NCBI RefSeq assembly: GCF_002943755.1
Contig: NZ_MQUB01000001.1
Coordinates: 1,662,501-1,726,500 of the forward strand
Origin: Aureitalea marina
GTDB taxonomy: Bacteria; Bacteroidota; Bacteroidia; Flavobacteriales; Flavobacteriaceae
Length of the DNA: 64,000 nt
Direction: 5' to 3'
Shown here in pieces: positions 20,931 through 38,100 of this stretch. Numbering within the stretch: position 1 is the stretch's first letter; the number at the start of each line of letters is the position of its first letter. A model generated the notes under the pieces. The model did not search any database and was not told the origin of the DNA. It saw nothing but the letters and a program-made list of their open reading frames with translations. A program made the position numbers and the translations under genes.

Positions 20931-21905
20931 TTAGGGGACATGAATTTCCAATATCCGTCCTCCATCACTTTTTAAAACCAGCTGATTAATGGAAGCAGGT
21001 ATGAGTATTGTTTCTCCCATATTCAGCCTAAACTTCTGCCCCTCGCAATCAATTTCTATTTGTCCCTCAGAACACATATAGACCACAAAAGAATCAACAT
21101 TGGTCAGATCTCTGTGCTGATCATTTTCAAGTTCCATTAAGCGTACGTCAAAGTATTTAGTGCGCTTTAAATTGTGCCAGCAGTCTTTTTCTTTACCAAA
21201 TTCCAGAGCCTTCGCACCAGACTTGAACTGGATCACATCTAAGGCTTCTTCGGTATGCAACTCCCGCATCTTACCATCGGTTCCGGGGCGGTCCCAATCA
21301 TATAACCTATAGGTAATATCAGATGATTGCTGAATCTCTGCTAACAGGATACCACCGCCAATGGCATGTACGGTTCCTGGCGATATAAAGTAAGAATCTC
21401 CTGCTCTTACCGTGACCTCTCCCATGACCTCAGATAAGGTACCTAACTCAAGATGTTGCAGATAATCTTTCTTGCTGATCGGTTTATCGAAATCTATGAT
21501 CAGTCTGGACCCTTCATCCGCCTGCATGATATACCACATCTCAGTCTTCCCCAGGCTTCCATGACGACTGCGCGCTATTTCATCGTTGGGATGCAGCTGG
21601 ATAGACAGATCTTGTTTGGCATCGATGAATTTAAACAACAATGGAAACTCTTCGCCATAGGTTTTCCAAACGGAATGTCCCAGTAGTTCTGGACCATACT
21701 TTTTGATCAATTCATTTAGATCACTGCCCGATAGAGGACCATCACTTACAACAGATACATGACCTGGAACACCGGATAACTCCCAGCTTTCACCGGCATT
21801 CTCCGTGGCAGGCTTCCCTAATATTTCATGAAGTTTATTTCCACCCCATACCTTGGACTGAACGATAGGATGAAATTTAAGCGGATAGAGTTTAGACCCG
21901 GGCAT
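20931..21905 (-). CDS. manA: mannose-6-phosphate isomerase, class I
   Basis: A 324-residue cupin-type enzyme of the short (Bacillus-like) class I form. The zinc-site motifs are present: QLHPND (about 122-127), KTEMWYI (Glu) and SPGTVHAIGGG (His), with the N-terminal KVWGG and GESWELS segments. It interconverts mannose-6-phosphate and fructose-6-phosphate, feeding GDP-mannose and surface glycans. It overlaps the peroxiredoxin gene upstream by 14 bases, which indicates coupled expression. Confidence 0.93.
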   Translation of the reverse strand: MPGSKLYPLKFHPIVQSKVWGGNKLHEILGKPATENAGESWELSGVPGHVSVVSDGPLSGSDLNELIKKYGPELLGHSVWKTYGEEFPLLFKFIDAKQDLSIQLHPNDEIARSRHGSLGKTEMWYIMQADEGSRLIIDFDKPISKKDYLQHLELGTLSEVMGEVTVRAGDSYFISPGTVHAIGGGILLAEIQQSSDITYRLYDWDRPGTDGKMRELHTEEALDVIQFKSGAKALEFGKEKDCWHNLKRTKYFDVRLMELENDQHRDLTNVDSFVVYMCSEGQIEIDCEGQKFRLNMGETILIPASINQLVLKSDGGRILEIHVP

Positions 21906-22347
21906 GTGATTTGATCAATTTGACCGCCTTTCTGATGTGTGGGTCCGCGGCCATGGACCTGAGACGGAAGATTAACTTCCCATCCGGGTCAAAAATAAAG
22001 GTTTCCCGCCCGGGAAGTAGGCCCATCATGGTATTTTTTACACCAAATTTCTTGGCGATCTTGCCTTTGGCATCAGATAATAGAATGAACGGTAAGTGGT
22101 AACGTTTGGCAAACCGCCCATGAGAACTAACAGAATCCTTACTAACTCCAACCACCCTGGCACCAGCTTCGGCCAGATCGTCAAACTGGTCCCGAAAGCC
22201 ACAGGCCTCACGAGTACATCCTGGAGTAAAGTTCTTTGGATAAAAATAGATCACCAAGAAGTTTCCGTCTAAAAGGTCTTCTGACCTTAGCAGTTGATCA
22301 TGTTGATCCTGGGCTTCAAATCGAGGCAGTAAATCTCCAACCTTCAT
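21892..22347 (-). CDS. bcp: thioredoxin-dependent peroxiredoxin, Bcp/PrxQ type
   Basis: A 151-residue AhpC/TSA-fold protein. The peroxidatic Cys44 in NFTPGCT and the resolving Cys49 five residues later (CTREAC) define the Bcp/PrxQ arrangement. FYPKNFTPG and the late FIFDPDGK segment are typical. It reduces hydrogen peroxide and organic hydroperoxides in the cytoplasm using thioredoxin. It lies in an operon after the PTPS-like gene (6-base gap) and overlaps manA. Confidence 0.92.
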   Translation of the reverse strand: MKVGDLLPRFEAQDQHDQLLRSEDLLDGNFLVIYFYPKNFTPGCTREACGFRDQFDDLAEAGARVVGVSKDSVSSHGRFAKRYHLPFILLSDAKGKIAKKFGVKNTMMGLLPGRETFIFDPDGKLIFRLRSMAADPHIRKAVKLIKSHARV

Positions 22348-22353
22348 CTTGTG

Positions 22354-22764
22354 CTAGTTACCCGTGTAAATGACATAATTACGGTCAGTCTCATAGAGTT
22401 TCACCGTGATCTTATACTTAGGATCCAGTCGATTTCTCAAGCGGTTATAAATAACGATCGCAATATTCTCGACAGTTGGATTCAAGTTGGCAAAATCGTC
22501 CACTTCTAAACTCAGATTTTTGTGGTCGAAACGCTCTTCGACTTCTTCTTTTATATAATCCTTTAATATCTTCAGGTCGATCAGGTAACCAGTTTCAGGG
22601 TCCACCTCTCCAGTCAATCCAACCTCGAGATTATAATTATGACCGTGAAAGTTAGGATTACTGCATTTTCCAAATACTTCGTAATTCTTCTCGTCCGACC
22701 AATCTGGTCGGTACAAGCGATGAGCTGCATTGAAATGCGCTTTTCTATAGACAGTTAGGCTCAT
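22354..22764 (-). CDS. 6-pyruvoyl-tetrahydropterin synthase / QueD-family enzyme
   Basis: A 136-residue T-fold enzyme. Zinc ligands are visible as His15 (FNAAH) and His40/His42 (HGHNY), with Cys34 as the catalytic thiol and a pterin-anchoring Glu in KLYETDRNY near the C-terminus. The spacing is C-x5-HGH (FGKCSNPNFHGHNY), as in eukaryotic-type PTPS, rather than the C-x3-HGH of classical QueD. The product could therefore be 6-pyruvoyl-tetrahydropterin (pterin pathway) or 6-carboxy-tetrahydropterin (queuosine pathway). No queC, queE or queF is adjacent. The start codon overlaps the idi stop by ATGA. Confidence 0.88.
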   Translation of the reverse strand: MSLTVYRKAHFNAAHRLYRPDWSDEKNYEVFGKCSNPNFHGHNYNLEVGLTGEVDPETGYLIDLKILKDYIKEEVEERFDHKNLSLEVDDFANLNPTVENIAIVIYNRLRNRLDPKYKITVKLYETDRNYVIYTGN

Positions 22765-23279
22765 TGTTCCAGGAATTGTGCGTATTTGTCAAAAATGATC
22801 TTGAACCAGGCCGTATATTGATCTGGGTGGCGATCCATATCCTTGCGGATCTCGCTCATCGCCATCCATTTCCAGGACTCCACTTCCTCCGGATTGATCT
22901 CCGGCTCACCTTCATACTGTCCAATAACCACATGGTCAAATTCGTGCTCGGTCAATCCATTATCAAATGGTGCCTTATAAATAAAGGAGGTAGCCTCCTT
23001 GAGTGGGGTAGAAAATCCCATCTCTTCCTGTAGCCTTCTTTTACCAGCTTCCAGGGTTGTCTCCCCATCCCGTTGATGACTGCAGCAGGTATTGGTCCAC
23101 AATAAAGGGGAATGGTATTTATGGGCAGCGCGTTGCTGGAGCATCAATTCGCCCGCCTCATTAAAGATAAAGACAGAAAATGCCCGGTGAAGCACCCCTT
23201 TGATATGGGCTTCCTGTTTAGGCATCAAACCAATGGCTTCGTCTTTTTCGTTGACCAGGATGACCTGTTCTTCTTTCAT
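22761..23279 (-). CDS. idi: isopentenyl-diphosphate delta-isomerase, type 1
   Basis: A 172-residue Nudix-fold isomerase. It has the type 1 signatures: LLWTNTCCSHQRDGE (catalytic Cys), a Nudix-box-like EAGKRRLQEEMGF, the HRAFSVFIFN opening and a late VESWKWM segment (Trp). It converts IPP to DMAPP in isoprenoid (carotenoid, quinone) synthesis; Flavobacteriia use the mevalonate route, where this enzyme is needed. It is the first gene of a tight minus-strand operon (idi, PTPS-like, bcp, manA) with a -7 promoter element just upstream. Confidence 0.95.
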   Translation of the reverse strand: MKEEQVILVNEKDEAIGLMPKQEAHIKGVLHRAFSVFIFNEAGELMLQQRAAHKYHSPLLWTNTCCSHQRDGETTLEAGKRRLQEEMGFSTPLKEATSFIYKAPFDNGLTEHEFDHVVIGQYEGEPEINPEEVESWKWMAMSEIRKDMDRHPDQYTAWFKIIFDKYAQFLEQ

Positions 23280-23304: not shown

Positions 23305-23345
23305 CAAAATGAGATGTTAAGAAAAATACAAGTCCAAGATGCGAT

Positions 23346-24290
23346 TTAGAAGAATCTTGGCGATAGTACCCGTTCTGATTTGTTTAGGATGTCAAATCTG
23401 AGGAAGACCTCATAGGATCCATCACTGTAGTCCTCCAACTCTTGAGTGGTGTAATCATACCCCACTCCAAGGAAAAAGCCATCACTCACCTGGAAGCCAA
23501 CCATCGCACTGACCGCTGCACTCCAGCGATAGGACGCACCCAAGGTCAACTTGTCGTACAACAGGAAGTTGGCAGACAGGTCCCACTGCAAGGGTGAACC
23601 ACTGACCATCTTGACCAGGGTAGCCGGCTTGAACAGTACATTCTCACTCAGATCGAACACATAACCCATGATCAGAAAATAGTGCAAACGCTCCGCTGCT
23701 ATCGACTCCGAACTACTACCAGCACTCAAACTACTCTCATCAAAGTGCTTGGTGGTTAGAAAGTTCGGTACCGAAAGCCCCGCATAGAAGCGCTCGGTGT
23801 TGTAGTAGATCCCTGCTCCTACCTGAGGCTGAACCTTGTTGTCGATATTGTTCTGAAACCTCGGGTCGGAGATATCGAAGATGTTCAACTTGGTAAAGTC
23901 TACATCCAATACGTCGATACCGGCCTTCAGTCCAAAGGACAGCTTACTGGCGTTGGCCAAAAACAACGAATAGGAATAATCCACATTGATGTTGGACTCC
24001 ACTGCAGGTCCCAACTCGTCATGAACAATCGACAACCCAAGACCCATGTTGTCCAAGGCCCCTATCGGACCATTGACCGTAAAGGTCCCTGTCTTTGGTG
24101 CCCCATCGATATTGACCCACTGGGTACGGCCCAGTAAACCAAAACTCAATACCTCCCGATTGCCCGCATAGGCCGGGTTGACCACCTGAGTGTTGTACAT
24201 GTATTGGGTATACTGTGGGTCCTGCTGGCTAAAACCATCGAACTGAACCAGTATCACCAAAATCACAAAGGCAATAAAACTATTTCTCAT
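23346..24290 (-). CDS. PorP/SprF-family T9SS outer-membrane protein (copy A)
   Basis: A 314-residue protein with a signal peptide (about 1-21, ending VQFDGFSQ). It has the PorP/SprF hallmark start of the mature part (QQDPQYTQYMYNTQVVNPAYAGNRE), a beta-barrel of about 14 strands and an aromatic-rich C-terminus. In Flavobacterium johnsoniae SprF is needed for surface delivery of SprB, and SprF-like proteins are paired with T9SS substrates that carry the type B (CHU_C) C-terminal domain. This gene lies 62 bases downstream of exactly such a substrate. The protein is identical to the copy at 31927-32871, so the two adhesins have interchangeable partners (inference). Confidence 0.93.
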   Translation of the reverse strand: MRNSFIAFVILVILVQFDGFSQQDPQYTQYMYNTQVVNPAYAGNREVLSFGLLGRTQWVNIDGAPKTGTFTVNGPIGALDNMGLGLSIVHDELGPAVESNINVDYSYSLFLANASKLSFGLKAGIDVLDVDFTKLNIFDISDPRFQNNIDNKVQPQVGAGIYYNTERFYAGLSVPNFLTTKHFDESSLSAGSSSESIAAERLHYFLIMGYVFDLSENVLFKPATLVKMVSGSPLQWDLSANFLLYDKLTLGASYRWSAAVSAMVGFQVSDGFFLGVGYDYTTQELEDYSDGSYEVFLRFDILNKSERVLSPRFF

Positions 24291-24311
24291 CGTGCGATAT
24301 TTTTAATTCCC

Positions 24312-24334
24312 GGCCAGGGGAAAAACCCCTGACC
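24312..24334 (-). promoter_or_regulatory. hairpin in the adhesin-sprF gap (also in copy B, 32893-32915)
   Basis: CAGGGG-AAAAA-CCCCTG, extended by two more pairs past a mismatch, forms a stable stem-loop between the adhesin stop and the sprF start. No T run follows on the minus strand, so it is more likely an mRNA-stabilising or processing element than a terminator. Confidence 0.45.
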
Positions 24335-24352
24335 AGAGAAATCCTTTATCTA

Positions 24353-27300
24353 TTAGTTTCTATTGATATATAAGTATCCTTGGTAGGCTGACTGTCCTGG
24401 GTTATCGCCCGGGAAGGTCAACACATAATAGTACGTACCACTTGGCAAGCGCTTGCCTTGCTGTATCGTCGTACGACCCTCAGATATACCTTCAAAACGT
24501 CGGCTGTTGTTGTCGTATCCATCCACCTCGAAGACCTGAACACCCCAGCGGTTGAACACCTTGAAATTGTTCTGTGGATAATCCTCGATTCCCTGGATCA
24601 CCATGAAGTCATTCAATCCGTCTCCGTCTGGTGATATGGCATTGAAGATCTCGAAGGTTGGCTGAGAACTGTTATCATTTAGGACCCGCGGTAAGATCAC
24701 CACGGTAGGGTCGTCCGGATTGCCATCTCCGTCCAAATCTCTATTGGTTGGGTCGTTAGGGTCATCCGAAAGTACCCGAATCTCATTTCCGTATTCGTCT
24801 GTGGCGATCACCTCGATCTGGGCTTCAACCATTAAGGCCTCGAGATCAGATTCCGTGATCAGATAGGTGATCACAAAAGTATCCTCATCTACCGTCCCAG
24901 GTGGAAGTTCTTCGATAGGACCACCGCTATAGGATAAGCCAGGGCCTCGGAACCCTAACTGAATATCGAACAAACTTGAATCCCCGGTGTTACTGACCGT
25001 TACTTGAAAACGGACTTCCTCATCCACCTCACTGTTTCCATTGTTGTTATTGTCCATCCAGCGTCCCTCCATCTCAACTTCGAAAGAGGCGGTCTTATCC
25101 TCCTCTTCTTCTTGCTCTTCCTCTTGCTCATCCTCTTGCTCGTCCTCCGCACAGAAACCTTCGAAAACGGTAGGATCGTCCTGGGCAAAATCGTCATCAT
25201 CCGAAAAATCCAAGATCATATTTCCCGAAATATCAACCGCAGTTACTTCTGCCTGGTTAATAACAAGACCCGCAGCCATATCTTCCGCTGTAATGACATA
25301 ATCGGCCGTAAAATTGCTGCTATTCTCTTCACCGACCAGCAGACTTATTGCTTCTCCATTTACTGCAGCCAGAGGATCATTAATAGATACTTCGAACAGG
25401 GTGACATTTCCGGTATTGGCCAGCCGGAAATTGTACTGCAAGGTCTCACCCGGATCGGCGCATCCATTCTCGTTAAGATCCAACAGACTTACGGTTTTGA
25501 TCAGCGCAATAGATGGGTCTTGGCAGAGATCGGTCACTGTGACCTCGTCGGTATCCACGGTGGACCCGGAGATATCACCGACCACGGTCTGATCCGGCGC
25601 CGTGGCTGTTACAGTAGCCTGATTGGTCACTGTTCCAACTTCGATATCATCTTGAGTTATCGTATAGGTGGCTGTGTATATCCAGGTTTCATCGATATTC
25701 AACAATCCGTCACTATCGGTATCTCCACTATCCGGTCCGGCCAGTTCTCCACCCAAGAGTGGGTCATTGACCACCACATTACTCATTGACTGATTTCCGG
25801 TGTTGCTCAGCTGAAGGGAAAACGCAATGGGCTCGCCAACTTGACTACAAGCTTCCGTTTGGTTGTATTCTGACGTCATGACCAACACAACGGCAGCTTG
25901 TTGGCAGATGTCCGTTATGGTAGGATCGTCTGTTTGCAGGGAGGTTCCCGACTCATCGTTAACCTCTGTAAAATTTGGAGTTTTTGCGATGACTGAAGCC
26001 TGGTTGACTACAGCTCCATAATCGATGTCTTCCTGGCTGAGGGAGTATCTTGCTTCATAGGTCCATTGTTCGTCTACATTCAGTTGACCATCCTGATTCA
26101 CATCACCGGATATAGGACCTGAAATTTCACCTCCCAACATAGGATCTGATAGCGCAACCTCACTCAATGTTACCTGTCCGGTATTAACTACAGTAAATTC
26201 ATACCCTATTTTTTGGCCAGGTAAAGGACAGGGAGCACTTTGGTCCAAGAGATCCTTTTTAACCAAGGCGATCTCGCCGGTAGAACACAACATGGACTGA
26301 ACCGTATTGCTCACGGATTCTAATCGTCCTTGAGCACTTGTTCCCGAAGAGAAAGCTGTATTTTCTGCATATCCGCGATCTAAATCCTCCTGACTCAGTA
26401 CGTAAGAACCTCTAAAATACCATCGCTCTCCTGGATTCAGTATACCGGGATCGGACTCATCTCCAGCAAAAGGAAGAGCCGAAAGTTCAGGAATCAATGG
26501 ATCCATTAAGTCGATGTCAAAAATGGGAAGATCACCAGTATTGGTTAAACTGAATTCGTAATCGATTTGATCTCCAGCTACCAGATCGAAACACGAAGTG
26601 GGCTGATCTACCGTACATTTCTCTAGACGCATTTCTGCCCGATTGCAAAGAGCAACTATCTCCTGGTCCGAAGAGTTTAGATCAAATATCTCCTCTGTAC
26701 CCACAAAATGGGCCTCAACCAAGGCTTGATTTATAACCTCTCCAGCGGTCACATCCTCGGCCTGAACCAAGTAAGCGGCTTCGAACACCCAGGTCTCGTC
26801 CGGGTCCAATCGTTCATCAGAGTTCGTATCGCCGGATAAAGGGCCTTCCAACGGCTGATCTGCAGCTATCAGAAAATCGGTCAGGCGAACCTGATCCAGG
26901 GGAACGTTTCCGATATTCTGCAGATTGAACCGATAGTTTATCATTTGTCCGGCCTGAATGGCATTACAGTTATCCGGATCTACATCAAGGGCTTGTTTAT
27001 CCAATGAAATTCCACAAGAATAGATGGTGAGGTTAATAGCTGTTCGCTCATCACTCACACATCCGCTAACAGGATCATAGGTTTCAGCATAGAAGGTTGT
27101 CATTCCCGGATCAGACCAAGAAGGGTCGGTAATGTTCTCTCCTCCAACGGCCTGTAAATACCACCTTAATGACATACCGTCCGCCACTTCTGCAGACGGA
27201 TAAAGTGTGATTTCTGCCTGACCTGTATCACAGGCAACCTGGTCGCCCATGCTCAAAGGCATTTCAGGAGATTCCTTGAGGATGATCGTCACTTCCTCAC

Positions 27301-28777
27301 TGCCACCTGCAACAAAACAATCGTCGTAAGTACCTTCGTAGATCAGTACGACCTTAAATTGACCCGAGAATGCCAGGTCACCTGGATAGGAATAACTACC
27401 CGATAGTTGATCGATCTCCTGTCCTGGTATCGTTTCAATCAGGTCTTCGTTCAGGTAGAATTGCCACTGATAGTCCAACAGGAAAGGTTCGCAACCACTC
27501 ATGTCCAGATCGGCTGAATAATTTATGGTGGAACTGCAATCCGGCTGGGTGATACTGAGGTCACTCATGTTCAAACAAGGAATACAGATATCGTTATTCG
27601 GAAATTGCAGTTCCGTCTCCTGACAAAAGACATCCGTGAATTCGACCTTACCCTGCTCAAAGGCTTGAGAACCACAAAGGTCAGTCGAAGCTAGCGTGAG
27701 ATTATAAGAAAGCTGAAAGTTTTGAGATCCAATATCCCCAATATTCCAGCTGATTTCGCGGAGCTGTTCATCATAGTTTATTTCTTCGGAACCAAAATCC
27801 GTGTCCACCAGTTCGAAGCCCGCGGGTATCGTTTCTATTAATGTCGCATCGTATGCAGCAATTGGAAGTTGCCCTAATATATCGTCATAGATTTCCATGA
27901 GTTCGGCGGCACTTTCAGTAAGATATAACCCTTTGTTCTGAATCTGATCCAGGGTAAAAATGGCCGCCTCCTCTGCATTTCCAGACAAAGCACCTAACAA
28001 GCCAACAGAATAAATGGACTGTTCAAACTCACCATCTGCGGTCTCAATGACCAAAGCTTCCTGACCCTTCTCGATAGCATCCGTCATGCAGTCCGTAGAG
28101 TTCTGAGGAAAAGGCGGAGTAGGATTGCTGGTACATGGAACGTTGTTTAAAAATCGTCGATTGGTGACCCCATCTGACAGCAAAACAAAGCTCCTGGATG
28201 TTATACAGTCCAGGCTGGCTCCATCGAGATCTCCTGGCACCTCTGAGATATCATTGTATATATCCCCATCATCCAAAGTACCTTTCATTAGTTCGCTACC
28301 TGCATTCAAAGCCATAGAAATATTGGTACCCCCGCTTGCAAAGAGCGAATTGACTGCCTCAATTAGCTCCTCCTTCTCATCGGAGCCTGCAAATCCATAA
28401 TTGGCCCAAGCGTAGATAGAATAGGAGATCACAGCTACCCGGTTCATCCCCGTAGGGTTATTCTCCTCGGAAAAAAGATTTTCGATGAAGTAGATGGCGG
28501 CATCTTTCGCATAATCCATAGGTTCCAAGTCATCACCGGGAATGTCCAATGCCATACTACCGGATCGATCGATAAGCAGGACTACTTCCTGCGGAATATC
28601 ATCAGGTACTCCGGTAACTTGAAGATCCACCACATATTCATTACATCCCTCCACGCTGTTCATGTTGCGTTCCAGCAGCAGGTTCTGACTATTGCTATCA
28701 ACTGTAGACAGGCAGAGAACCAGTCCCACAAACATGGACCTAAACAAACTTTGATATGTAGTCGGATTGGAGATCAC
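24353..28777 (-). CDS. vWA-domain, DUF7507-repeat adhesin with type B T9SS sorting domain
   Basis: A 1474-residue surface protein. A signal peptide occupies about 1-30. A von Willebrand factor A domain (about 62-290) carries an intact MIDAS (DRSGS: Asp70, Ser72, Ser74) that should bind a divalent cation and a ligand. Next come a beta-sandwich region (about 300-600), then six DUF7507/DUF11-type repeats (about 605-1350; motifs NTGNV, SGDxNxDGxLxxDE.W.Y.A.Y..TQ.D). A Glu/Gln-rich linker lies near residue 1215. The last 100 residues are the gliding-motility-associated (CHU_C, type B) sorting domain (FEIFNAISPDGDGLNDF). It should be exported by Sec, then T9SS, with the adjacent SprF-like protein. 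It is 9 bases from the small secreted protein upstream. A ligand-binding adhesin is likely; the ligand is unknown. Confidence 0.92.
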   Translation of the reverse strand: MISNPTTYQSLFRSMFVGLVLCLSTVDSNSQNLLLERNMNSVEGCNEYVVDLQVTGVPDDIPQEVVLLIDRSGSMALDIPGDDLEPMDYAKDAAIYFIENLFSEENNPTGMNRVAVISYSIYAWANYGFAGSDEKEELIEAVNSLFASGGTNISMALNAGSELMKGTLDDGDIYNDISEVPGDLDGASLDCITSRSFVLLSDGVTNRRFLNNVPCTSNPTPPFPQNSTDCMTDAIEKGQEALVIETADGEFEQSIYSVGLLGALSGNAEEAAIFTLDQIQNKGLYLTESAAELMEIYDDILGQLPIAAYDATLIETIPAGFELVDTDFGSEEINYDEQLREISWNIGDIGSQNFQLSYNLTLASTDLCGSQAFEQGKVEFTDVFCQETELQFPNNDICIPCLNMSDLSITQPDCSSTINYSADLDMSGCEPFLLDYQWQFYLNEDLIETIPGQEIDQLSGSYSYPGDLAFSGQFKVVLIYEGTYDDCFVAGGSEEVTIILKESPEMPLSMGDQVACDTGQAEITLYPSAEVADGMSLRWYLQAVGGENITDPSWSDPGMTTFYAETYDPVSGCVSDERTAINLTIYSCGISLDKQALDVDPDNCNAIQAGQMINYRFNLQNIGNVPLDQVRLTDFLIAADQPLEGPLSGDTNSDERLDPDETWVFEAAYLVQAEDVTAGEVINQALVEAHFVGTEEIFDLNSSDQEIVALCNRAEMRLEKCTVDQPTSCFDLVAGDQIDYEFSLTNTGDLPIFDIDLMDPLIPELSALPFAGDESDPGILNPGERWYFRGSYVLSQEDLDRGYAENTAFSSGTSAQGRLESVSNTVQSMLCSTGEIALVKKDLLDQSAPCPLPGQKIGYEFTVVNTGQVTLSEVALSDPMLGGEISGPISGDVNQDGQLNVDEQWTYEARYSLSQEDIDYGAVVNQASVIAKTPNFTEVNDESGTSLQTDDPTITDICQQAAVVLVMTSEYNQTEACSQVGEPIAFSLQLSNTGNQSMSNVVVNDPLLGGELAGPDSGDTDSDGLLNIDETWIYTATYTITQDDIEVGTVTNQATVTATAPDQTVVGDISGSTVDTDEVTVTDLCQDPSIALIKTVSLLDLNENGCADPGETLQYNFRLANTGNVTLFEVSINDPLAAVNGEAISLLVGEENSSNFTADYVITAEDMAAGLVINQAEVTAVDISGNMILDFSDDDDFAQDDPTVFEGFCAEDEQEDEQEEEQEEEEDKTASFEVEMEGRWMDNNNNGNSEVDEEVRFQVTVSNTGDSSLFDIQLGFRGPGLSYSGGPIEELPPGTVDEDTFVITYLITESDLEALMVEAQIEVIATDEYGNEIRVLSDDPNDPTNRDLDGDGNPDDPTVVILPRVLNDNSSQPTFEIFNAISPDGDGLNDFMVIQGIEDYPQNNFKVFNRWGVQVFEVDGYDNNSRRFEGISEGRTTIQQGKRLPSGTYYYVLTFPGDNPGQSAYQGYLYINRN

Positions 28778-28786
28778 TGTGTATGC

Positions 28787-29278
28787 TTAATTGTCAGATT
28801 GATCCGGTTCCATCCAAAGACGGAGATTAATGTGGCTATTGGATGAGCACTGTTTGCTTTGAGCCTTTACAGTAATACACTGCCAGGAAGCACGACTCAA
28901 AGTCTGTCTGAGACTCACTAACATGGATATAGATTCCGATTGTCCTGGTTGAACCAAGACTCGGTTAGCTGAATTCTGAGAAGTCTTCCATGTAGTAGTA
29001 AACAGATCAGGATCTGTTCTGCGCTCGGATTCCAGATCTCCGAGGGAACATGAATCAGGACCGACATCAACAGATAACAGATACTCCTGAACCTGGTCTG
29101 AATGATTGGTCAACTGTAAATAAAAGCGGGTGGGATCCTCCGATGTAACGGTGCGCGTATGCCTGTTCTTAACCACAGTCAAAGTGCTCTCGCAGCTCTG
29201 ACCCCAACTTAACTGGCTAAAAACAAGACACAATAGTGCCCATAGCATTGAGCGTTCCCCAACTGATCTCAAATGCAT
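28787..29278 (-). CDS. small secreted protein of unknown function
   Basis: A 163-residue protein with a signal peptide; either the first Met or Met11 (MLWALLCLVFSQLSWGQ) could be the start. The mature part is about 135 residues, beta-rich and holds four cysteines (SCEST, DSCSLG, QCITVK, KQCSS), suggesting two disulfides. The pattern of LQLTNHSDQVQEYLLSV and VLVQPGQSESISMLVSLR looks like an Ig-like or immunoglobulin-fold structure. It has no T9SS tail, so it is probably periplasmic. It lies 9 bases before the vWA adhesin and is its likely operon partner. I do not recognise a family. Confidence 0.7.
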   Translation of the reverse strand: MHLRSVGERSMLWALLCLVFSQLSWGQSCESTLTVVKNRHTRTVTSEDPTRFYLQLTNHSDQVQEYLLSVDVGPDSCSLGDLESERRTDPDLFTTTWKTSQNSANRVLVQPGQSESISMLVSLRQTLSRASWQCITVKAQSKQCSSNSHINLRLWMEPDQSDN

Positions 29279-29464
29279 TTCTTCGCAATTTATGCGAGTA
29301 GAATACCCAACTGTAATTTCAACTCTAGTCGAAAGGTAAGTAGGAAATTTCTTTCGTCATAAAAACCCTGTGTATATTAGGCAAAGACCGTATATTCTCG
29401 ACGAACAACCCTTTTTTGGTTAAAAAATTCGCTTGTGGAAGGTAAATCTTACATTTAATTTCAT

Positions 29465-29497
29465 AAAAAAGGGTGCTCAAATTGATGAGCACCCTTT
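29465..29497 (-). terminator. intrinsic terminator of the giant-adhesin/OmpA operon
   Basis: A 9-bp stem (GGGTGCTCA 29471-29479 with TGAGCACCC 29486-29494) is extendable by AAA/TTT, and on the minus strand it is followed by six T (29470-29465). It lies 25 bases past the OmpA-family stop. The rest of the gap to 29279 has no recognisable feature. Confidence 0.9.
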
Positions 29498-29521
29498 GTT
29501 AAAGGCGGGAAACGATCCGGA

Positions 29522-31486
29522 TTAATTCTGGATGATAAACATGGAACGCCGGTTGAGTTGGTGTTCCTCCTCCGTACAATCCGAACCGTTACCGCACCGA
29601 TTAGTTAGCTGATATTCACCATATCCCTTAGCGCTTAATCGACCTGGGTCGACACCCTGGTCAATAAGCCACTTCATAGTCGATTGAGCTCTACGCTCGG
29701 ACAAGTCCTCATTGTAGAGATCGTCTCCTCGGGAATCAGTGTGAGATTCAATATGAATGATCAGTTGGGGGTACTCATTCAACGCAGATAGAATCTTTGC
29801 TAACTCTATTTCCGCATCTGGGCGGATATAATCTTTATCAAAATCAAAATAAATGGGTTGTAAACTTAGGCGACATCCAAGATCATCGGCAGGACATGGA
29901 TCACATGGCAATAGTACAGGCACTTCCATAATCTGGCTCTCTTTCGGAGTTTGGACCAATCTTTCCTGAGGATCACAACCCTCAAAATTGGCACGTACCA
30001 AATATGTTTCGTCACATCCCAATATATCACCAAAAGTGTATCGGCCACTTATATCAGTAACTGTGGTAGCAATTACCTGGTTATTGGCATCGAGCAGAGT
30101 TACTGTGGCTCCCTCAATATACGCTCCAGTTTCCTGGTTTGCGACGGAACCGGCAATGGTGACTTCACAGAACTTCAGGAAATAAATATCATCGGACAAA
30201 CTCCCGGCACTCCCCGATCGGTTAGAGGAGACATAGGCCATCCGTTTCTCCGGATCAATGATAAAACCAAAGTCGTCCAAACCAGAATTTACTGGCTCTC
30301 CCATATTCTCTATACTAGTTGGCATGCCACCGGCATCGAGTTCGGTAAAGAAAACATCCATTCCACCAAGACCTGGGTGACCATCGCCTGAGAAATAAAG
30401 TATGTTCTCGTTGGAAATGAAGGGGAAGGATTCACGGGCTCCAGTATTGATCTTAGGTCCCAAATTGACTGGCGAACCAAAACTACCATCATCATTGATG
30501 GAGACATACCAGATGTCCGAAGCTCCATAGGTTCCTTCTCGGTCGGAGGCAAAGTACAGACGTTTACCATCCAGACTTAGTGTTGGATGAGCAAAAGAAA
30601 CTGATTTTTCGTCCCCTTCCAGTTCCAGGCGTTCTACCTCACCCCAACTGCCACTTTCTTGCATCCGTGCGCGAAAAAGTTTCAATGTAAGCGTCTTATC
30701 ACTTCCGTATTTCTTTTTCCCTTCCACCACATTGTTTCTGGTAAAGTACAGCGTCTTTCCATCGGCAGAAAGAGCGGTTGAAGACTCGTGATAAGGACTG
30801 TTGACCTCACCAGGTAAGGCCCGTGCATTGGAAAGCTCCCCATTTTCATCAATGTCGGCTATATAAAGATCGAGGAAACCATCGTTGGTCCACTCGTACA
30901 CCTTAGCACCGGTACCATTGGATGTTGAGGCGAAAAGGAGTTGGTCTCCATAGAAACTAGATACAAAGTCCGAACCGTCCGTATTGATCCCAACCGCGTT
31001 AACATTAAAATCCTTGGCATTGGCCCTTATGTCCTCCAGATAATTCTTACTGTCCATATAATTCTTTACGATCAGGCTATCCCCACCATTTTCTGAATAG
31101 AGCATCATGAGTTCGTCTGCCCTTTCGAAATCTCCCATACTTTTGGCAGATTGGGCAGCTCGGAAATAGTAATCGGCAGCTAGTGGATCCGGATAATCTT
31201 CATTGGGGAAGATCTCCAATAATTGATCATAATATTTAGCCGCATCCTCATACTGCCCATTGAAGTAATAGGTATCTGCGAGGTTTTGGTATAATTGAGG
31301 AGAACTGTATCCTTTCTCGATCACCTGCATATAGATCTCTCGGGCGTCGATAAAAGAAAAACGATCGTAGATCTTATCGGCCTTCTTGATCTTAGGTCTT
31401 GTCTGACCAATAGAAACAGTGGTCATCAACCCCACTATGGCAACAAGGAAAAGACGTGTAATGCTAACGGATGTCTTCATAATCAT
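29522..31486 (-). CDS. OmpA-family protein with TPR, PD40 and regulatory-like domains (PorE/SprC-D-like architecture)
   Basis: A 654-residue envelope protein. A signal peptide (about 1-27) precedes TPR-like helices (about 35-150; LADTYYFNGQYEDAAKYYDQLL). PD40/WD40-like beta-propeller repeats (about 190-430; STALSADGKTLYFTRN, HPTLSLDGKRLYFASDREG, SFPFISNENILYFSGDG) are followed by a carboxypeptidase-regulatory-like domain (about 440-525). A C-terminal OmpA domain (about 540-654) carries the peptidoglycan-binding residues in HTDSRGDD and SERRAQS. It probably anchors an outer-membrane complex to the cell wall, like PorE in T9SS or the OmpA-like proteins near sprB. It is the last gene of the giant-adhesin operon, 2 bases after the TPR gene, followed by a terminator. 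Confidence 0.92.
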   Translation of the reverse strand: MIMKTSVSITRLFLVAIVGLMTTVSIGQTRPKIKKADKIYDRFSFIDAREIYMQVIEKGYSSPQLYQNLADTYYFNGQYEDAAKYYDQLLEIFPNEDYPDPLAADYYFRAAQSAKSMGDFERADELMMLYSENGGDSLIVKNYMDSKNYLEDIRANAKDFNVNAVGINTDGSDFVSSFYGDQLLFASTSNGTGAKVYEWTNDGFLDLYIADIDENGELSNARALPGEVNSPYHESSTALSADGKTLYFTRNNVVEGKKKYGSDKTLTLKLFRARMQESGSWGEVERLELEGDEKSVSFAHPTLSLDGKRLYFASDREGTYGASDIWYVSINDDGSFGSPVNLGPKINTGARESFPFISNENILYFSGDGHPGLGGMDVFFTELDAGGMPTSIENMGEPVNSGLDDFGFIIDPEKRMAYVSSNRSGSAGSLSDDIYFLKFCEVTIAGSVANQETGAYIEGATVTLLDANNQVIATTVTDISGRYTFGDILGCDETYLVRANFEGCDPQERLVQTPKESQIMEVPVLLPCDPCPADDLGCRLSLQPIYFDFDKDYIRPDAEIELAKILSALNEYPQLIIHIESHTDSRGDDLYNEDLSERRAQSTMKWLIDQGVDPGRLSAKGYGEYQLTNRCGNGSDCTEEEHQLNRRSMFIIQN

Positions 31487-31488
31487 GC

Positions 31489-31914
31489 TTATTTTAGGAA
31501 GGCCTGGACCAATTTAGGGTCCCCTCCCATTGCCGAGTATTGACCGATCAATTCTACGGCGAGTTCTTTATTTGATATAGCCTTGGCCGATCTAGCGGCA
31601 CGTAAATAATAGTCTTCAGATAAGGTCTCTGGATAAGCCTCATTCGGATAACTGCTGAACAATTCCTGATACCAACGCAATGCTTCCGCATACTCAGATT
31701 TAAAATAATAGGAATCTGCCAGTTTCTGCAGGACTTGCGGAGAACGATATCCTCTTTCCACCACGTCCAGATAAACCTTACTTGAATCGATATAGGCATA
31801 AGGGTCTTTGGAAGCTTTTTCTTCTGATACTTCCTCCTGGGCCTGAAGATTTCCTAAACTGACCAGGAAGATCATCAGACCGAGAATCATAATATGATTG
31901 TTGTTAAAGCTCAA
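31489..31914 (-). CDS. TPR-like periplasmic protein, truncated paralogue of the OmpA-family neighbour
   Basis: A 141-residue protein with a signal peptide (Met1 or Met9 start; ends GNLQAQ). The mature part aligns without gaps to the N-terminal TPR region of the 654-residue OmpA protein directly downstream. Shared features include the YLDVVERGYRSPQ / YMQVIEKGYSSPQ pair, LADSYYFKSEYAEALRWY / LADTYYFNGQYEDAAKYY, and DYYLRAARSAK / DYYFRAAQSAK. It stops where the propeller of the neighbour would begin. It looks like a diverged tandem copy of that module, either kept as a stand-alone TPR protein or a remnant. It lies 12 bases after sprF and 2 bases before the OmpA gene. Confidence 0.82.
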   Translation of the reverse strand: MSFNNNHIMILGLMIFLVSLGNLQAQEEVSEEKASKDPYAYIDSSKVYLDVVERGYRSPQVLQKLADSYYFKSEYAEALRWYQELFSSYPNEAYPETLSEDYYLRAARSAKAISNKELAVELIGQYSAMGGDPKLVQAFLK

Positions 31915-31925
31915 ACTAGTCGTGT

Positions 31926-33237
31926 TTTAGAAGAATCTTGGCGATAGTACCCGTTCTGATTTGTTTAGGATGTCAAATCTGAGGAAGACCTCATAGGATC
32001 CATCACTGTAGTCCTCCAACTCTTGAGTGGTGTAATCATACCCCACTCCAAGGAAAAAGCCATCACTCACCTGGAAGCCAACCATCGCACTGACCGCTGC
32101 ACTCCAGCGATAGGACGCACCCAAGGTCAACTTGTCGTACAACAGGAAGTTGGCAGACAGGTCCCACTGCAAGGGTGAACCACTGACCATCTTGACCAGG
32201 GTAGCCGGCTTGAACAGTACATTCTCACTCAGATCGAACACATAACCCATGATCAGAAAATAGTGCAAACGCTCCGCTGCTATCGACTCCGAACTACTAC
32301 CAGCACTCAAACTACTCTCATCAAAGTGCTTGGTGGTTAGAAAGTTCGGTACCGAAAGCCCCGCATAGAAGCGCTCGGTGTTGTAGTAGATCCCTGCTCC
32401 TACCTGAGGCTGAACCTTGTTGTCGATATTGTTCTGAAACCTCGGGTCGGAGATATCGAAGATGTTCAACTTGGTAAAGTCTACATCCAATACGTCGATA
32501 CCGGCCTTCAGTCCAAAGGACAGCTTACTGGCGTTGGCCAAAAACAACGAATAGGAATAATCCACATTGATGTTGGACTCCACTGCAGGTCCCAACTCGT
32601 CATGAACAATCGACAACCCAAGACCCATGTTGTCCAAGGCCCCTATCGGACCATTGACCGTAAAGGTCCCTGTCTTTGGTGCCCCATCGATATTGACCCA
32701 CTGGGTACGGCCCAGTAAACCAAAACTCAATACCTCCCGATTGCCCGCATAGGCCGGGTTGACCACCTGAGTGTTGTACATGTATTGGGTATACTGTGGG
32801 TCCTGCTGGCTAAAACCATCGAACTGAACCAGTATCACCAAAATCACAAAGGCAATAAAACTATTTCTCATCGTGCGATATTTTTAATTCCCGGCCAGGG
32901 GAAAAACCCCTGACCAGAGAAATCCTTTATCTATTAGTTTCTATTGATATATAAGTATCCTTGGTAGGCTGACTGTCCTGGGTTATCGCCCGGGAAGGTC
33001 AACACATAATAGTACGTACCACTTGGCAAGCGCTTGCCTTGCTGTATCGTCGTACGACCCTCAGATATACCTTCAAAACGTCGGCTGTTGTTGTCGTATC
33101 CATCCACCTCGAAGACCTGAACACCCCAGCGGTTGAACACCTTGAAATTGTTCTGTGGATAATCCTCGATTCCCTGGATCACCATGAAGTCATTCAATCC
33201 GTCTCCGTCTGGTGATATGGCATTGAAGATCTCGAAG
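31926..33237 (-). repeat. 1312-bp direct repeat, copy B (type B sorting domain + sprF)
   Basis: The second copy of the unit at 23345-24656, same orientation, 8581 bp away. Covers the last 100 codons of the giant adhesin, the gap with its hairpin and the whole sprF-like gene. Confidence 0.95.
31927..32871 (-). CDS. PorP/SprF-family T9SS outer-membrane protein (copy B)
   Basis: 314 residues, identical to the protein at 23346-24290, including the signal peptide and the QQDPQYTQYMYNTQVVNPAYAGN opening. Its place directly after a giant SprB-like adhesin matches the sprB-sprF order of F. johnsoniae, where SprF is required for secretion of SprB to the surface. Here it is followed by TPR and OmpA-family genes in the same operon, which may supply the periplasmic anchoring of the complex (inference). 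Complete identity with copy A points to recent duplication or gene conversion. Confidence 0.93.
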   Translation of the reverse strand: MRNSFIAFVILVILVQFDGFSQQDPQYTQYMYNTQVVNPAYAGNREVLSFGLLGRTQWVNIDGAPKTGTFTVNGPIGALDNMGLGLSIVHDELGPAVESNINVDYSYSLFLANASKLSFGLKAGIDVLDVDFTKLNIFDISDPRFQNNIDNKVQPQVGAGIYYNTERFYAGLSVPNFLTTKHFDESSLSAGSSSESIAAERLHYFLIMGYVFDLSENVLFKPATLVKMVSGSPLQWDLSANFLLYDKLTLGASYRWSAAVSAMVGFQVSDGFFLGVGYDYTTQELEDYSDGSYEVFLRFDILNKSERVLSPRFF

Positions 33238-35168
33238 TTATTACTCAGAACGATTGGCAGTACAGTCACCGTTGGATCATCTGGATCACCATCGCCCTCC
33301 TCGTCAATGTCGGTAGAGTCGTTAGGATCATCTGAAAGATCAGTTATCTGCTGTCCAAGAATATTCTCGGCAGTGGCTGTCGCCTGGTTGACAACTTCAC
33401 CATTGATGATATCTTCTTGTGTGATCACATAAGACCCTTCAAAGGTATCATCGTCGGTTTCACCCGGAAGTAACTCTTCAATTGGACCTCCAGTAATGAC
33501 AACACCTGGAAGTGGGTCATCCAGCTGGATGTTGTACAACGGAAGTGAACCAGTGTTGGTCACCGCAAAGTTGAACGTAATGGTCTCTCCAACCTGCGTA
33601 TTTCCGTCACCGTTCTCGTCATTGAAAGTTCCCGTCTTCTCAACCTCCAGAGTTCCTACAGATAGTGTAATCACACAACCTGTGCTGAAAATGGTCGGAT
33701 CGTCTTCCAGGAAGCTGTCGTTATCCGACAGATCACTAACATCTTGGCCGTCAGTAGTTGTTCCTGTAGCCGTTGCCTGGTTCACAACTTCTCCATCGAT
33801 AAGGTCCTGCAGCGTGATCTCGTACTCGGCCGTAAAGGTCATCGTATCGATCTCACCTATATCCAGGTCGATCGGTCCGCCCACCACATCCACAAGTGGA
33901 TCGGTAATGGTAACGTTTGTAAGCGCCTGATTACCTGTATTGGCAACTTGGAAGCTGTACAATAGCAGATCTCCTGGAGTAGGACAATCATTATCATCCA
34001 GATCGATAAAGTCGAATTCTTTGATCAAGGCTATACCTGGATTCTGACACAGTTCGGTCTCAGTTGGATCGTCGTTATCCACGGCAGATCCGGACAGATC
34101 ACTAACCTCAGTCTGATCAGGTGCGATAGCCGTTGCAGTAGCCTGGTTGGTCACTGTTCCAACTTCGATATCATCCTGGGTAATGGTGTAGGTTGCTGAA
34201 TAGATCCAGATCTCATCCAGATCCAACAGTCCGTCGCCATCTGTGTCTCCACTATCTGGTCCGGCAAGTTCACCACCCAATAATGGATCGTTCACCACCA
34301 CATTACTCAAGGTAACATTGCCTTCATTACTCACAGCAAAGGTGTAGATGATCGGCTTACCTGCTTCACTACAGTCACCACCATCGTCATAACTAGCTGT
34401 CTTCACAATTGCAATAGCAGGTTCCTGACATAGATCGGTCTCAGTGGCATCATCCGTGTCTACTGTTGTACCGGACTGATCGCTGACCTCTGTCTGATCT
34501 TGAGTCAGACCAGTAACAGTTGCTTGGTTCACTACCTCTCCGGCGTCTATATCATCCTGGGTAATGGTGTAACTAGCTTCGTAAATCCACTGCTCCGTTA
34601 CATCCAATTGCCCATCATTATCGGTGTCACCAGATATAGGTCCTGCGACCACACCTCCAAGGAGGTCGTCGATCAATTCAATATCGCTCAAGGATACATT
34701 ACCCTTGTTGGACACCAGGAATTGATAGTTGATCGTATCGCCTATAGACGAACATTCATCCGGGTTCTCCAATTCACCGATCTTGACTACGGCAATATCA
34801 GCTTGTTGACATAGTTCGGTTTCTGTTACATCGTCCGTATCGATAGCCGATCCAGACAGATCACTAACCGGTGACTGATCTGGTGCAATCGCACTGGCAG
34901 TAGCCTGGTTCAGAACAACTCCGGCATCTATGTCCGCTTGAGTGATTAGGTATGATCCGGTATAGATCCATTCCTCGTTCACATCCAGTAGTCCGTCATT
35001 ATCATTGTCACCACTGTCCGGTCCGGCAAGAATTCCGCCTAATAGAAGATCTTCTACCTCCACATTTGAAAGACTCACATTTCCGGTATTGTATACCGTA
35101 AAGGTGTAGGTGATCTCGTCTCCTACAGAGCTACAATCTCCTCCGATATCATAATCAGCCTCTTTCAC
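32934..35168 (-). CDS. giant SprB-like adhesin, C-terminal fragment (DUF7507 repeats + type B sorting domain)
   Basis: 744 residues counted from the first ATG, but the reading frame is open and homologous up to the frameshift at about 35264 (776 residues). No signal peptide or start context supports a separate gene, so this is the 3' part of the giant adhesin. It contains five DUF7507-type repeats (IAIVKTASYDDGGDCSEAG-type openings) that are less alike than those in the central array. It ends in the 100-residue CHU_C/type B domain (FEIFNAISPDGDGLNDF to GYLYINRN), identical to that of the vWA adhesin. This end is what T9SS recognises, so without the frame being restored the large N-terminal part would lack a secretion signal. 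Confidence 0.88.
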   Translation of the reverse strand: MKEADYDIGGDCSSVGDEITYTFTVYNTGNVSLSNVEVEDLLLGGILAGPDSGDNDNDGLLDVNEEWIYTGSYLITQADIDAGVVLNQATASAIAPDQSPVSDLSGSAIDTDDVTETELCQQADIAVVKIGELENPDECSSIGDTINYQFLVSNKGNVSLSDIELIDDLLGGVVAGPISGDTDNDGQLDVTEQWIYEASYTITQDDIDAGEVVNQATVTGLTQDQTEVSDQSGTTVDTDDATETDLCQEPAIAIVKTASYDDGGDCSEAGKPIIYTFAVSNEGNVTLSNVVVNDPLLGGELAGPDSGDTDGDGLLDLDEIWIYSATYTITQDDIEVGTVTNQATATAIAPDQTEVSDLSGSAVDNDDPTETELCQNPGIALIKEFDFIDLDDNDCPTPGDLLLYSFQVANTGNQALTNVTITDPLVDVVGGPIDLDIGEIDTMTFTAEYEITLQDLIDGEVVNQATATGTTTDGQDVSDLSDNDSFLEDDPTIFSTGCVITLSVGTLEVEKTGTFNDENGDGNTQVGETITFNFAVTNTGSLPLYNIQLDDPLPGVVITGGPIEELLPGETDDDTFEGSYVITQEDIINGEVVNQATATAENILGQQITDLSDDPNDSTDIDEEGDGDPDDPTVTVLPIVLSNNFEIFNAISPDGDGLNDFMVIQGIEDYPQNNFKVFNRWGVQVFEVDGYDNNSRRFEGISEGRTTIQQGKRLPSGTYYYVLTFPGDNPGQSAYQGYLYINRN

Positions 35169-35173
35169 TATGG

Positions 35174-38100
35174 CTAGATCTGCGATTTGACATAGATCCG
35201 TAATGGTAGTCTCATCGTCATCGACAGTTGCTCCGGAAAGATCACTGACCTCAGACTGATCAGGGCTGTTCCTGTAGCAGTTGCTTGGTTGGAAACAGAT
35301 CCTGTGTCTATATCATCCAGACTAATTCCATAGCTTGCCGTATAGGTCCATACTTCGTCTATATCCAGAAGTCCGTCATTATTGGTATCACCACTATTTG
35401 GGCCGGAGATTACTCCACCCACCAGCGGATCTTCCACTACAATATTGGACAAGGTTACGTTTCCAGTATTATATACCTGGAAAGTATAGTCAATTATATC
35501 ACCTATAGCACTACACTCGCCATTAGGCTCGTAACTGGCTGTCTTTACAATTGCGATAACAGGAATCTGACAGATCGGTGTGATCGTCTCTTCGTCATCA
35601 GATATCGTAGCACCAGAGGTGTCACTTACTTCGTTGTCTTGTGGATCATCGGCAGTTACCGTGGCCGTGTTGGTCACAGAACCAGCGTCGATGTCAGCCT
35701 GCGTAACCGCATAGCTACCCTCGTAGATCCATACCTCGCCTACACCAAGGATATCATCATCTCCAGCATCGCCACTTACATAAGCAGCATCGGCTACCAG
35801 TGGGTCATCCAGTACAACATTATCCAGCGATACATTACCCTGGTTGCTCACCTCGAAGCGATACGTGATCAGTCCGCCAACAGTTACATCGTAACAGTTG
35901 TCTGTCGGATCCAGATCCACAGTAGCTGTCTTCACCAAGGCAATGGCAGCATCCTGACAGATCGGAGTCACCGTCTCTTCGTCATCAGATATCGTAGCAC
36001 CAGAGGTGTCACTTACTTCGTTGTCTTGTGGATCATCGGCAGTTACCGTGGCCGTGTTGGTCACAGAACCAGCGTCGATGTCAGCCTGCGTAACCGCATA
36101 GCTACCCTCGTAGATCCATACCTCGCCTACACCAAGGATATCATCATCTCCAGCATCGCCACTTACATAAGCCGCATTGGCTACCAGTGGGTCATCCAGT
36201 ACAACATTATCCAGCGATACATTACCCTGGTTGCTCACCTCGAAGCGATACGTGATCAGTCCGCCAACAGTTACATCGTAACAGTTGTCTGTCGGATCCA
36301 GATCCACAGTAGCTGTCTTCACCAAGGCAATGGCAGCATCCTGACAGATCGGAGTCACCGTCTCTTCGTCATCAGATATCGTAGCACCAGAGGTGTCACT
36401 TACTTCGTTGTCTTGTGGATCATCGGCAGTTACCGTGGCCGTGTTGGTCACAGAACCAGCGTCGATGTCAGCCTGCGTAACCGCATAGCTACCCTCGTAG
36501 ATCCATACCTCGCCTACACCAAGGATATCATCATCTCCAGCATCGCCACTTACATAAGCAGCATCGGCTACCAGTGGGTCATCCAGTACAACATTATCCA
36601 GCGATACATTACCCTGGTTGCTCACCTCGAAGCGATACGTGATCAGTCCGCCAACAGTTACATCGTAACAGTTGTCTGTCGGATCCAGATCCACAGTAGC
36701 TGTCTTCACCAAGGCAATGGCAGCATCCTGACAGATCGGAGTCACCGTCTCTTCGTCATCAGATATCGTAGCACCAGAGGTGTCACTTACTTCGTTGTCT
36801 TGTGGATCATCGGCAGTTACCGTGGCCGTGTTGGTCACAGAACCAGCGTCGATGTCAGCCTGCGTAACCGCATAGCTACCCTCGTAGATCCATACCTCGC
36901 CTACGCCAAGGATATCATCATCTCCAGCATCGCCACTTACATAAGCAGCATTGGCTACCAGTGGGTCATCCAGCACAACATTATCCAGTGATACATTACC
37001 CTGGTTGCTCACCTCGAAGCGATACGTGATCAGTCCGCCAACAGTTACATCGTAACAGTTGTCTGTCGGATCCAGATCCACAGTAGCTGTCTTCACCAAG
37101 GCAATGGCAGCATCCTGACAGATCGGAGTCACCGTCTCTTCGTCATCAGATATCGTAGCACCAGAGGTGTCACTTACTTCGTTGTCTTGTGGATCATCGG
37201 CAGTTACCGTGGCCGTGTTGGTCACAGAACCAGCGTCGATGTCAGCCTGCGTAACCGCATAGCTACCCTCGTAGATCCATACCTCGCCTACACCAAGGAT
37301 ATCATCATCTCCAGCATCGCCACTTACATAAGCCGCATTGGCTACCAGTGGGTCATCCAGTACAACATTATCCAGCGATACATTACCCTGGTTGCTCACC
37401 TCGAAGCGATACGTGATCAGTCCGCCAACAGTTACATCGTAACAGTTGTCTGTCGGATCCAGATCCACAGTAGCTGTCTTCACCAAGGCAATGGCAGCAT
37501 CCTGACAGATCGGAGTCACCGTCTCTTCGTCATCAGATATCGTAGCACCAGAGGTGTCACTTACTTCGTTGTCTTGTGGATCATCGGCAGTTACCGTGGC
37601 CGTGTTGGTCACAGAACCAGCGTCGATGTCAGCCTGCGTAACCGCATAGCTACCCTCGTAGATCCATACCTCGCCTACACCAAGGATATCATCATCTCCA
37701 GCATCGCCACTTACATAAGCAGCATCGGCTACCAGTGGGTCATCCAGCACAACATTATCCAGTGATACATTACCCTGGTTGCTCACCTCGAAGCGATACG
37801 TGATCAGTCCGCCAACCGTTACATCGTAACAGTTGTCTGTCGGATCCAGATCCACAGTAGCTGTCTTCACCAAGGCAATGGCAGCATCCTGACAGATCGG
37901 AGTCACCGTCTCTTCGTCATCAGAGATCGTGGCACCAGAGGTGTCATCTACTTCGTTATCCTGTGGATCGTCAGCTGTTACCGTGGCCGTGTTGGTCACA
38001 GATCCAGCGTCGATGTCAGCCTGCGTAACCGCATAGCTACCCTCGTAGATCCATACCTCGCCTACACCAAGGATATCATCATCTCCAGCATCGCCACTTA

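Follow-up and report, generated by a model that had tools for sequence, protein, structure and literature searches.

Neighbouring adhesin loci of Aureitalea marina and relatives very likely share a sorting-domain and SprF shuttle cassette through concerted evolution

Two adhesin loci within a 64,000-nucleotide stretch of the Aureitalea marina genome (contig NZ_MQUB01000001.1, positions 1,662,501 to 1,726,500; in the following, the window) end in the same 1312 bp, comprising a C-terminal sorting domain and the adjacent gene for a PorP/SprF-type T9SS shuttle. Comparison with related genomes makes it very likely that such tandem loci evolve in concert, one copy being repeatedly overwritten by the other while the adhesin bodies diverge. 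Judged from sequence, gene conversion is the most likely mechanism of this overwriting.

The two tracts, at 23345-24656 and 31926-33237 on the minus strand, were compared base by base. None of the 1312 nucleotides differed, and the exact match did not extend by a single nucleotide on either side, which bears out the exact duplication that the initial annotation had noted by eye. The A. marina genome (3.07 Mb, 4 contigs) contains exactly two full copies of the tract, and a third match covers only 65 nt at 77% identity. On the adhesin side, the CHU_C domain starts at F1375 of the 24353-28777 reading frame (first base 24655) and at F645 of the 32934-35168 reading frame (first base 33236); the tract base beyond, 24656/33237, is the third position of the preceding codon (ACC or AAC), so that the edge coincides with the first CHU_C residue plus one shared base. 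At the other end, both copies stop one base beyond the sprF stop codon. Apart from the shared base, the edges are thus those originally described, and the adhesin bodies beyond them have diverged as was also claimed: the adhesin repeats directly upstream of the tracts are homologous with a DNA identity of 63-65%. No homology was found between the compared flanks downstream of the two window tracts.

Within the tracts, sprF copy 1 (23346-24290, minus strand) encodes a 314-residue protein of the PorP/SprF family (PF11751, 291 bits at a cut-off of 22.3; TIGR03519, 271.8 bits at a cut-off of 90.55). Copy 2 (31927-32871, minus strand) is identical, and the whole genome holds four PorP/SprF genes including these two. 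Both adhesins carry a C-terminal CHU_C domain (PF13585, 85.5 and 87.5 bits, cut-off 27), that of adhesin 1 being the type B sorting domain at 24353-24655 (minus strand; 85.5 bits). The matches to the T9SS type B sorting domain model TIGR04131 were nearly full-length and scored 32.4 and 33.7 bits, just under the NCBIfam cut-off of 35, and both domains were therefore classed as CHU_C only. The 62-nt spacer between adhesin 1 and sprF copy 1 (24291-24352, minus strand; identical at 32872-32933) contains an 11-bp hairpin that is strong and GC-rich, with a predicted energy of -25.6 kcal/mol. A hairpin with quite different stem sequences occurs in the spacer at the corresponding locus of most relatives, namely the one linked to an IDI-like gene; it is absent from L013, L026, L032 and one copy of G232. 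The hairpin may serve in mRNA processing or attenuation.

Along the minus strand, the window genes are ordered giant adhesin, sprF copy 2, a TPR reading frame, a PorE-like gene, a 163-aa reading frame without Pfam match (28787-29278), adhesin 1, sprF copy 1 and a NUDIX gene. Adhesin 1 (24353-28777, minus strand), here termed adhV, consists of a VWA N-terminus, DUF7507/DUF11 repeats and the CHU_C domain according to Pfam. Its sprF is followed directly by the NUDIX (IDI-like) gene and lacks a PorE gene, whereas sprF copy 2 is followed by a truncated TPR frame and then by the PorE-like gene. The latter (29522-31486, minus strand) encodes 654 residues with TPR, PD40, carboxypeptidase-regulatory-like and OmpA domains in Pfam. 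It was named PorE-like on account of its TPR, PD40 and OmpA parts, since its score with the PorE model NF052230, 299.7 bits, lies under the NCBIfam cut-off of 600; the CHU_0125 model likewise scored under its cut-off. The 141-aa TPR frame (31489-31914, minus strand) corresponds only to the N-terminal TPR part of a PorE-like protein, being 41% identical to residues 15-144 of the 654-aa protein. It occupies the position usual for PorE after sprF and is either what is left of a PorE gene or a TPR partner in its own right.

The giant adhesin is spread over three minus-strand reading frames: a C-terminal part with five DUF7507 repeats and CHU_C (32934-35168), a body of 4674 codons with 32 DUF7507 stretches and two SprB repeats (35174-49198), and a probable N-terminal part of 674 codons with one DUF7507 (49198-51222), which is out of frame with the body. 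By Pfam and frame analysis it reads as one gene with two one-base frameshifts (35174-35330 and 49190-49215), one of them in a G-run. If real, these would separate the body from its signal peptide and sorting domain; a sequencing error is as likely. The two frameshifts make small errors in the window assembly likely, and a few differences between the tract copies may have been lost in polishing. The region 35538-45907 of the giant adhesin consists of arrays of 384-, 387- and 783-bp repeats, often 91-98% alike within arrays, a similarity which indicates that repeats are homogenized within this gene too.

Downstream of sprF copy 1, at 20931-23279 on the minus strand, lie three conserved neighbours identified by a NUDIX match and tblastn synteny, which we take to be genes for an IDI-like protein (22761-23279), PTPS (22354-22764) and ManA (20931-21905). 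The order adhesin, sprF, PorE-like gene, IDI, PTPS, ManA recurs across many genera in tblastn synteny searches, and the last three genes served as the marker of the orthologous locus in relatives, which were mostly Flavobacteriaceae. Two different PorE-like genes stand in tandem in the sprF-IDI interval of L146, L129 and L126 (genomes G346, G054 and G039).

A search with the SprF protein against 299 genomes of the family returned equal-scoring pairs in G198 and G101 among the matches listed; G306, a congener of G101, was added by a search of that genus. G198 and G306 are single-contig assemblies. In G198, the order is adhV, sprF, second adhesin, sprF, PorE, IDI, and the sprF pair is 99.7% identical at the nucleotide level with three silent differences, within a stretch of about 1500 nt that holds four differences in all. 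The G101 pair is exact over 3622 bp, a stretch that begins within the last adhesin repeat, takes in CHU_C, sprF and PorE, and ends shortly before IDI. In G306, 2963 bp across sprF and PorE are exact. Upstream, positions -26 to -809 hold 25 scattered differences, including two in the sorting domain.

This identity is confined to copies of the same genome. Within pairs, sprF nucleotide identity was 100% in the window, 99.7% in G198, and 100% in G101 and G306, versus 69.4-82.1% between genomes. Correspondingly, dS was 0, 0.014, 0 and 0 within pairs, versus 1.23 (G101-G306), 1.51, 1.87 and 2.31 (window-G198) between genomes. The PorE-like proteins are 100% identical within G101 and within G306, and 81.9% identical between the two. 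Copies in all four genomes are therefore closer to their paralogue than to the copies of the other three genomes, silent sites included, and the expectation formulated beforehand for conversion, that copies be more alike within than between genomes, held in four genomes of three genera. In a sprF tree of 43 rows, 40 of them different, each of these pairs grouped together. Forcing the five adhV-linked copies into one clade, with identical rows left free, worsened the log-likelihood by 86.8 and was rejected (p-AU 7.6e-51). Together with G078, G299 and G304, the four tandem cases make up a single clade (support 100/99), and the homogenizing state may hence have a single origin.

The loci themselves are older than the identity of their ends. 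The adhV N-termini are about 68% identical at the amino acid level among G198, G101 and G306 (68.4% for G198-G306), and the second adhesin is 73.6% identical between G198 and G306; its G101 counterpart matches only over a later stretch of about 140 aa (71-79%). The second adhesin of G198 was found in only 2 of 11 further genomes. As adhV is orthologous in all four genomes and the second adhesin is shared between G198 and G306, the loci predate the tract identity, and since the pairs are alike within and diverged between genomes, the tails were overwritten after the loci arose. The argument is weaker for the window, where the gene order differs and the N-terminal approximately 690 residues of adhV are only 38-39% identical to those of G198, G306 and G101. 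The earlier proposal of conversion rather than a one-off copy is consequently upheld most firmly for these three relatives and less so for the window itself. A simple tandem duplication of whole adhesin units was rejected, as the N-termini of adhV and the second adhesin are unrelated; within a genome, comparison of the two adhesins gave no more than about 100 aa of similar repeats in G101, and none in G198 and G306.

We propose the following course of events. Two tandem adhesin loci, each ending in a T9SS type B sorting domain and a PorP/SprF shuttle gene, often with a PorE-like anchor gene, would act as direct repeats. Recombination between them on the same chromosome, presumably of the RecA type and without loss of the DNA in between, would repeatedly overwrite one copy with the other. 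The adhesin bodies would be too dissimilar to take part and so diverge, and a tract would end where homology stops or becomes too poor. The sorting domain, the spacer, the last adhesin repeat and PorE would be co-converted for as long as they are still similar enough, with the SprF barrel kept alike, as in every homogenized case compared. Both window adhesins would then share one export and anchoring partner, their shuttles being interchangeable.

The extent of the tracts bears on whether the sorting domain and the shuttle are a selected unit. The initial annotation saw the conserved unit as exactly the secretion signal plus its partner, and conversion could be maintained because the two must match, with the C-terminal domain (CTD) and SprF always converted together. 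The tract does span both in the window, G198, G101 and G306, and CTD/shuttle pairs of Flavobacterium johnsoniae are specific, according to the excerpted text of one study (PMC12618676). However, the description of the unit does not hold generally. In G198, G101 and G306, the upstream end of the tract lies about 200-450 nt beyond that in the window, and in G101 and G306 the tract includes the PorE-like gene and part of the last adhesin repeat; the downstream edge is the end of shared synteny. G306 has sprF and PorE exact, yet two differences in the sorting domain. In G177, a 330-contig assembly with the sprF copies on two contigs, the pair is 96.4% identical, the mature SprF being about 99% alike (five differences after position 71) and the sorting domains only 56%. 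G190 shows the same pattern in a single contig, with copies 1.36 Mb apart that are 95.3% identical and mostly 92-100% alike per 60-nt window in the mature part. In both genomes (loci L153, L154, L134 and L135), the signal peptide, the sorting-domain region and PorE have diverged and only the mature SprF barrel is alike, the barrel being the part common to all six homogenized cases. As eight genomes moreover keep diverged pairs, we regard selection for a matched cassette as unlikely.

The comparison of pairs covered 14 genomes with two copies, and further genomes with several matches (G010, G018, G026, G068, G135 and others) were left aside. Six of the 14 had sprF pairs of at least 95% identity (window, G198, G101, G306, G177, G190), and the remaining eight had pairs with 64.6-79.9% nucleotide identity (G322, G042, G346, G278, G232, L026, L013, L032). 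In the sprF tree, the copies of L026 and L032 grouped by locus and not by genome. Relatives with diverged, locus-specific copies had been named as evidence that would speak against conversion; they exist alongside the near-identical pairs, and homogenization is thus a state of certain lineages and not a rule. In this small sample, no pair falls between 80 and 95% identity, which suggests, as a lead, a threshold beyond which copies escape homogenization. One of the diverged cases, G232, resembles G198 in layout, with a second adhesin 75% identical, sprF copies 67.6% alike and a weak adhV (a 40% piece in the synteny search, no match at 1e-60). The IDI-linked copy of G232 has the spacer hairpin and its adhV-linked copy lacks it, and all homogenized tandem copies have the hairpin, which suggests, as a lead from one genome, that the IDI-linked cassette is the donor. 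Tentatively, and with more doubt than confidence, the reading may be widened: the SprF shuttle would be the concerted part genome-wide, its barrel overwritten between loci near or far (1.36 Mb in G190), sometimes without the sorting domain, and copies that have drifted past roughly 80% identity would escape into private pairs.

It is improbable that the window merely reflects a single, very recent copying of the CHU_C-sprF segment to the second adhesin, with no ongoing process. Zero differences cannot date more than one event, the window gene order and its 38-39% identical adhV set it apart from the other three genomes, and its nearest neighbour on the sprF tree, G078, has one sprF and one adhesin at the locus; in this single-contig genome, adhV directly precedes a single sprF-PorE-IDI series, which fits equally a crossover between cassettes that deleted the second adhesin and an ancestral single state. 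However, the same pattern recurs with different sequences in G198, G101 and G306. In addition, adhV with its own downstream sprF is common to the relatives, so that an older cassette must have been replaced there, and replacing an existing copy is conversion under another name.

An assembly artefact, by which one copy was placed twice or similar copies were polished to one consensus, is very improbable. The two frameshifts of the giant adhesin hint at a noisy long-read assembly, and polishing can equalize close copies, but the flanks differ on both sides of the window tracts, two single-contig genomes and a third assembly show the same pattern, with a few real differences in G198 and G306, and polishing would hide at most a handful of differences. 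Short-read assemblies of congeners, moreover, break where an exact repeat would break. adhV was found in 11 of 11 genomes from the genera of G198 (7) and G101 (4), and in 21 of the 42 genomes searched overall. Only 3 of the 7 and 2 of the 4 yielded a close sprF; the genomes in which no sprF of the window kind was found (4 of 7 and 2 of 4) are all fragmented and possess adhV. IDI was found in 7 of the 8 fragmented members of these genera. In the short-read assemblies of G300, G301 and G303, the IDI contig starts 124, 95 and about 126 nt ahead of the sprF stop, respectively. The contig start lies about 155-170 nt ahead of the PorE stop in both G307 and G302, at position +42 of sprF in G304, and at -630 in G299, near the upstream tract edge of G198. 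A second contig of G304 holds the last 147 nt of the other copy, with one difference. Short-read assemblers usually work with k-mers such as 99 or 127 nt, and because the overlaps are close to these lengths, the breaks in G300, G301 and G303 resemble those of an exact repeat that terminates at the sprF stop and was collapsed in assembly, suggesting homogenized pairs in further congeners. As a control, 52 plus-strand IDI places were counted by eye among the matches listed, and one of them (G038) lay 2000-2300 nt from a contig start, where no sprF or PorE piece was found. If repeats have indeed collapsed, surveys of T9SS gene content would miss sprF.

Strong purifying selection on two old copies without recombination can be dismissed despite the good conservation of the SprF protein (71-88% identical amino acids between the window, G198, G101 and G306), because protein-level selection cannot equalize silent sites and spacer, which are identical within genomes and saturated or different between them (dS near 0 versus above 1).

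Concerted evolution of this kind has counterparts. Duplicated mtrA genes of methanogens have reportedly undergone gene conversion and concerted evolution, with copies alike within a genome and differing between genomes. Gene conversion between duplicated bacterial genes has been measured for rRNA operons, whose copies likewise match within and differ between genomes, as the excerpted source has it (PMC8022953). In contrast to both, the unit in the present case combines a portion of one gene with the gene or genes that follow, lies between diverged or unrelated adhesin bodies and has lineage-specific edges. The gingipain and hagA products of Porphyromonas gingivalis are type A substrates for which no linked shuttle gene is known. 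They resemble the present case as T9SS-exported surface proteins with identical repeats across genes that defeat automated assembly, and differ in that the shared parts are adhesin domains, going by extracts of the report (PMC5266723). No description of homogenized SprF cassettes was found among the titles and abstract openings listed by searches of the open-licence PubMed Central literature.

The closest known arrangement is Fjoh_3952-3951-3950 of F. johnsoniae, where the gene for a putative adhesin that carries a type B sorting domain is joined by an adjacent SprF-like and a downstream PorE-like gene; there, however, the pairs are cognate and mostly distinct, with CTDs mostly 20-30% identical, whereas neighbouring pairs are identical within a genome here (PMC12618676 and PMC9143113, as excerpted). 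In the same organism, the shuttle of a 68%-identical CTD also works, and those of 43% and 26% identical CTDs do not (PMC12618676, in extract). From the proposal in that partial text that PorE-linked CTD/shuttle pairs are static anchors (PMC12618676), we infer that a single shuttle and a single anchor may serve both window adhesins.

Type B sorting domains and SprF shuttles have hitherto been described as specific cognate pairs. If the genome-wide reading is true, one evolving shuttle per genome would serve several adhesins, and the switch between homogenized and private states would decide if adhesins have their surface anchors in common or use separate ones. If the shuttle is homogenized in some lineages and diverged in others, the family provides a natural specificity experiment run many times, in which homogenized genomes would reveal adhesins able to share a shuttle and diverged genomes would reveal private pairs. 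In homogenized lineages, the export partner would evolve as a single gene although the adhesins that it serves evolve separately.
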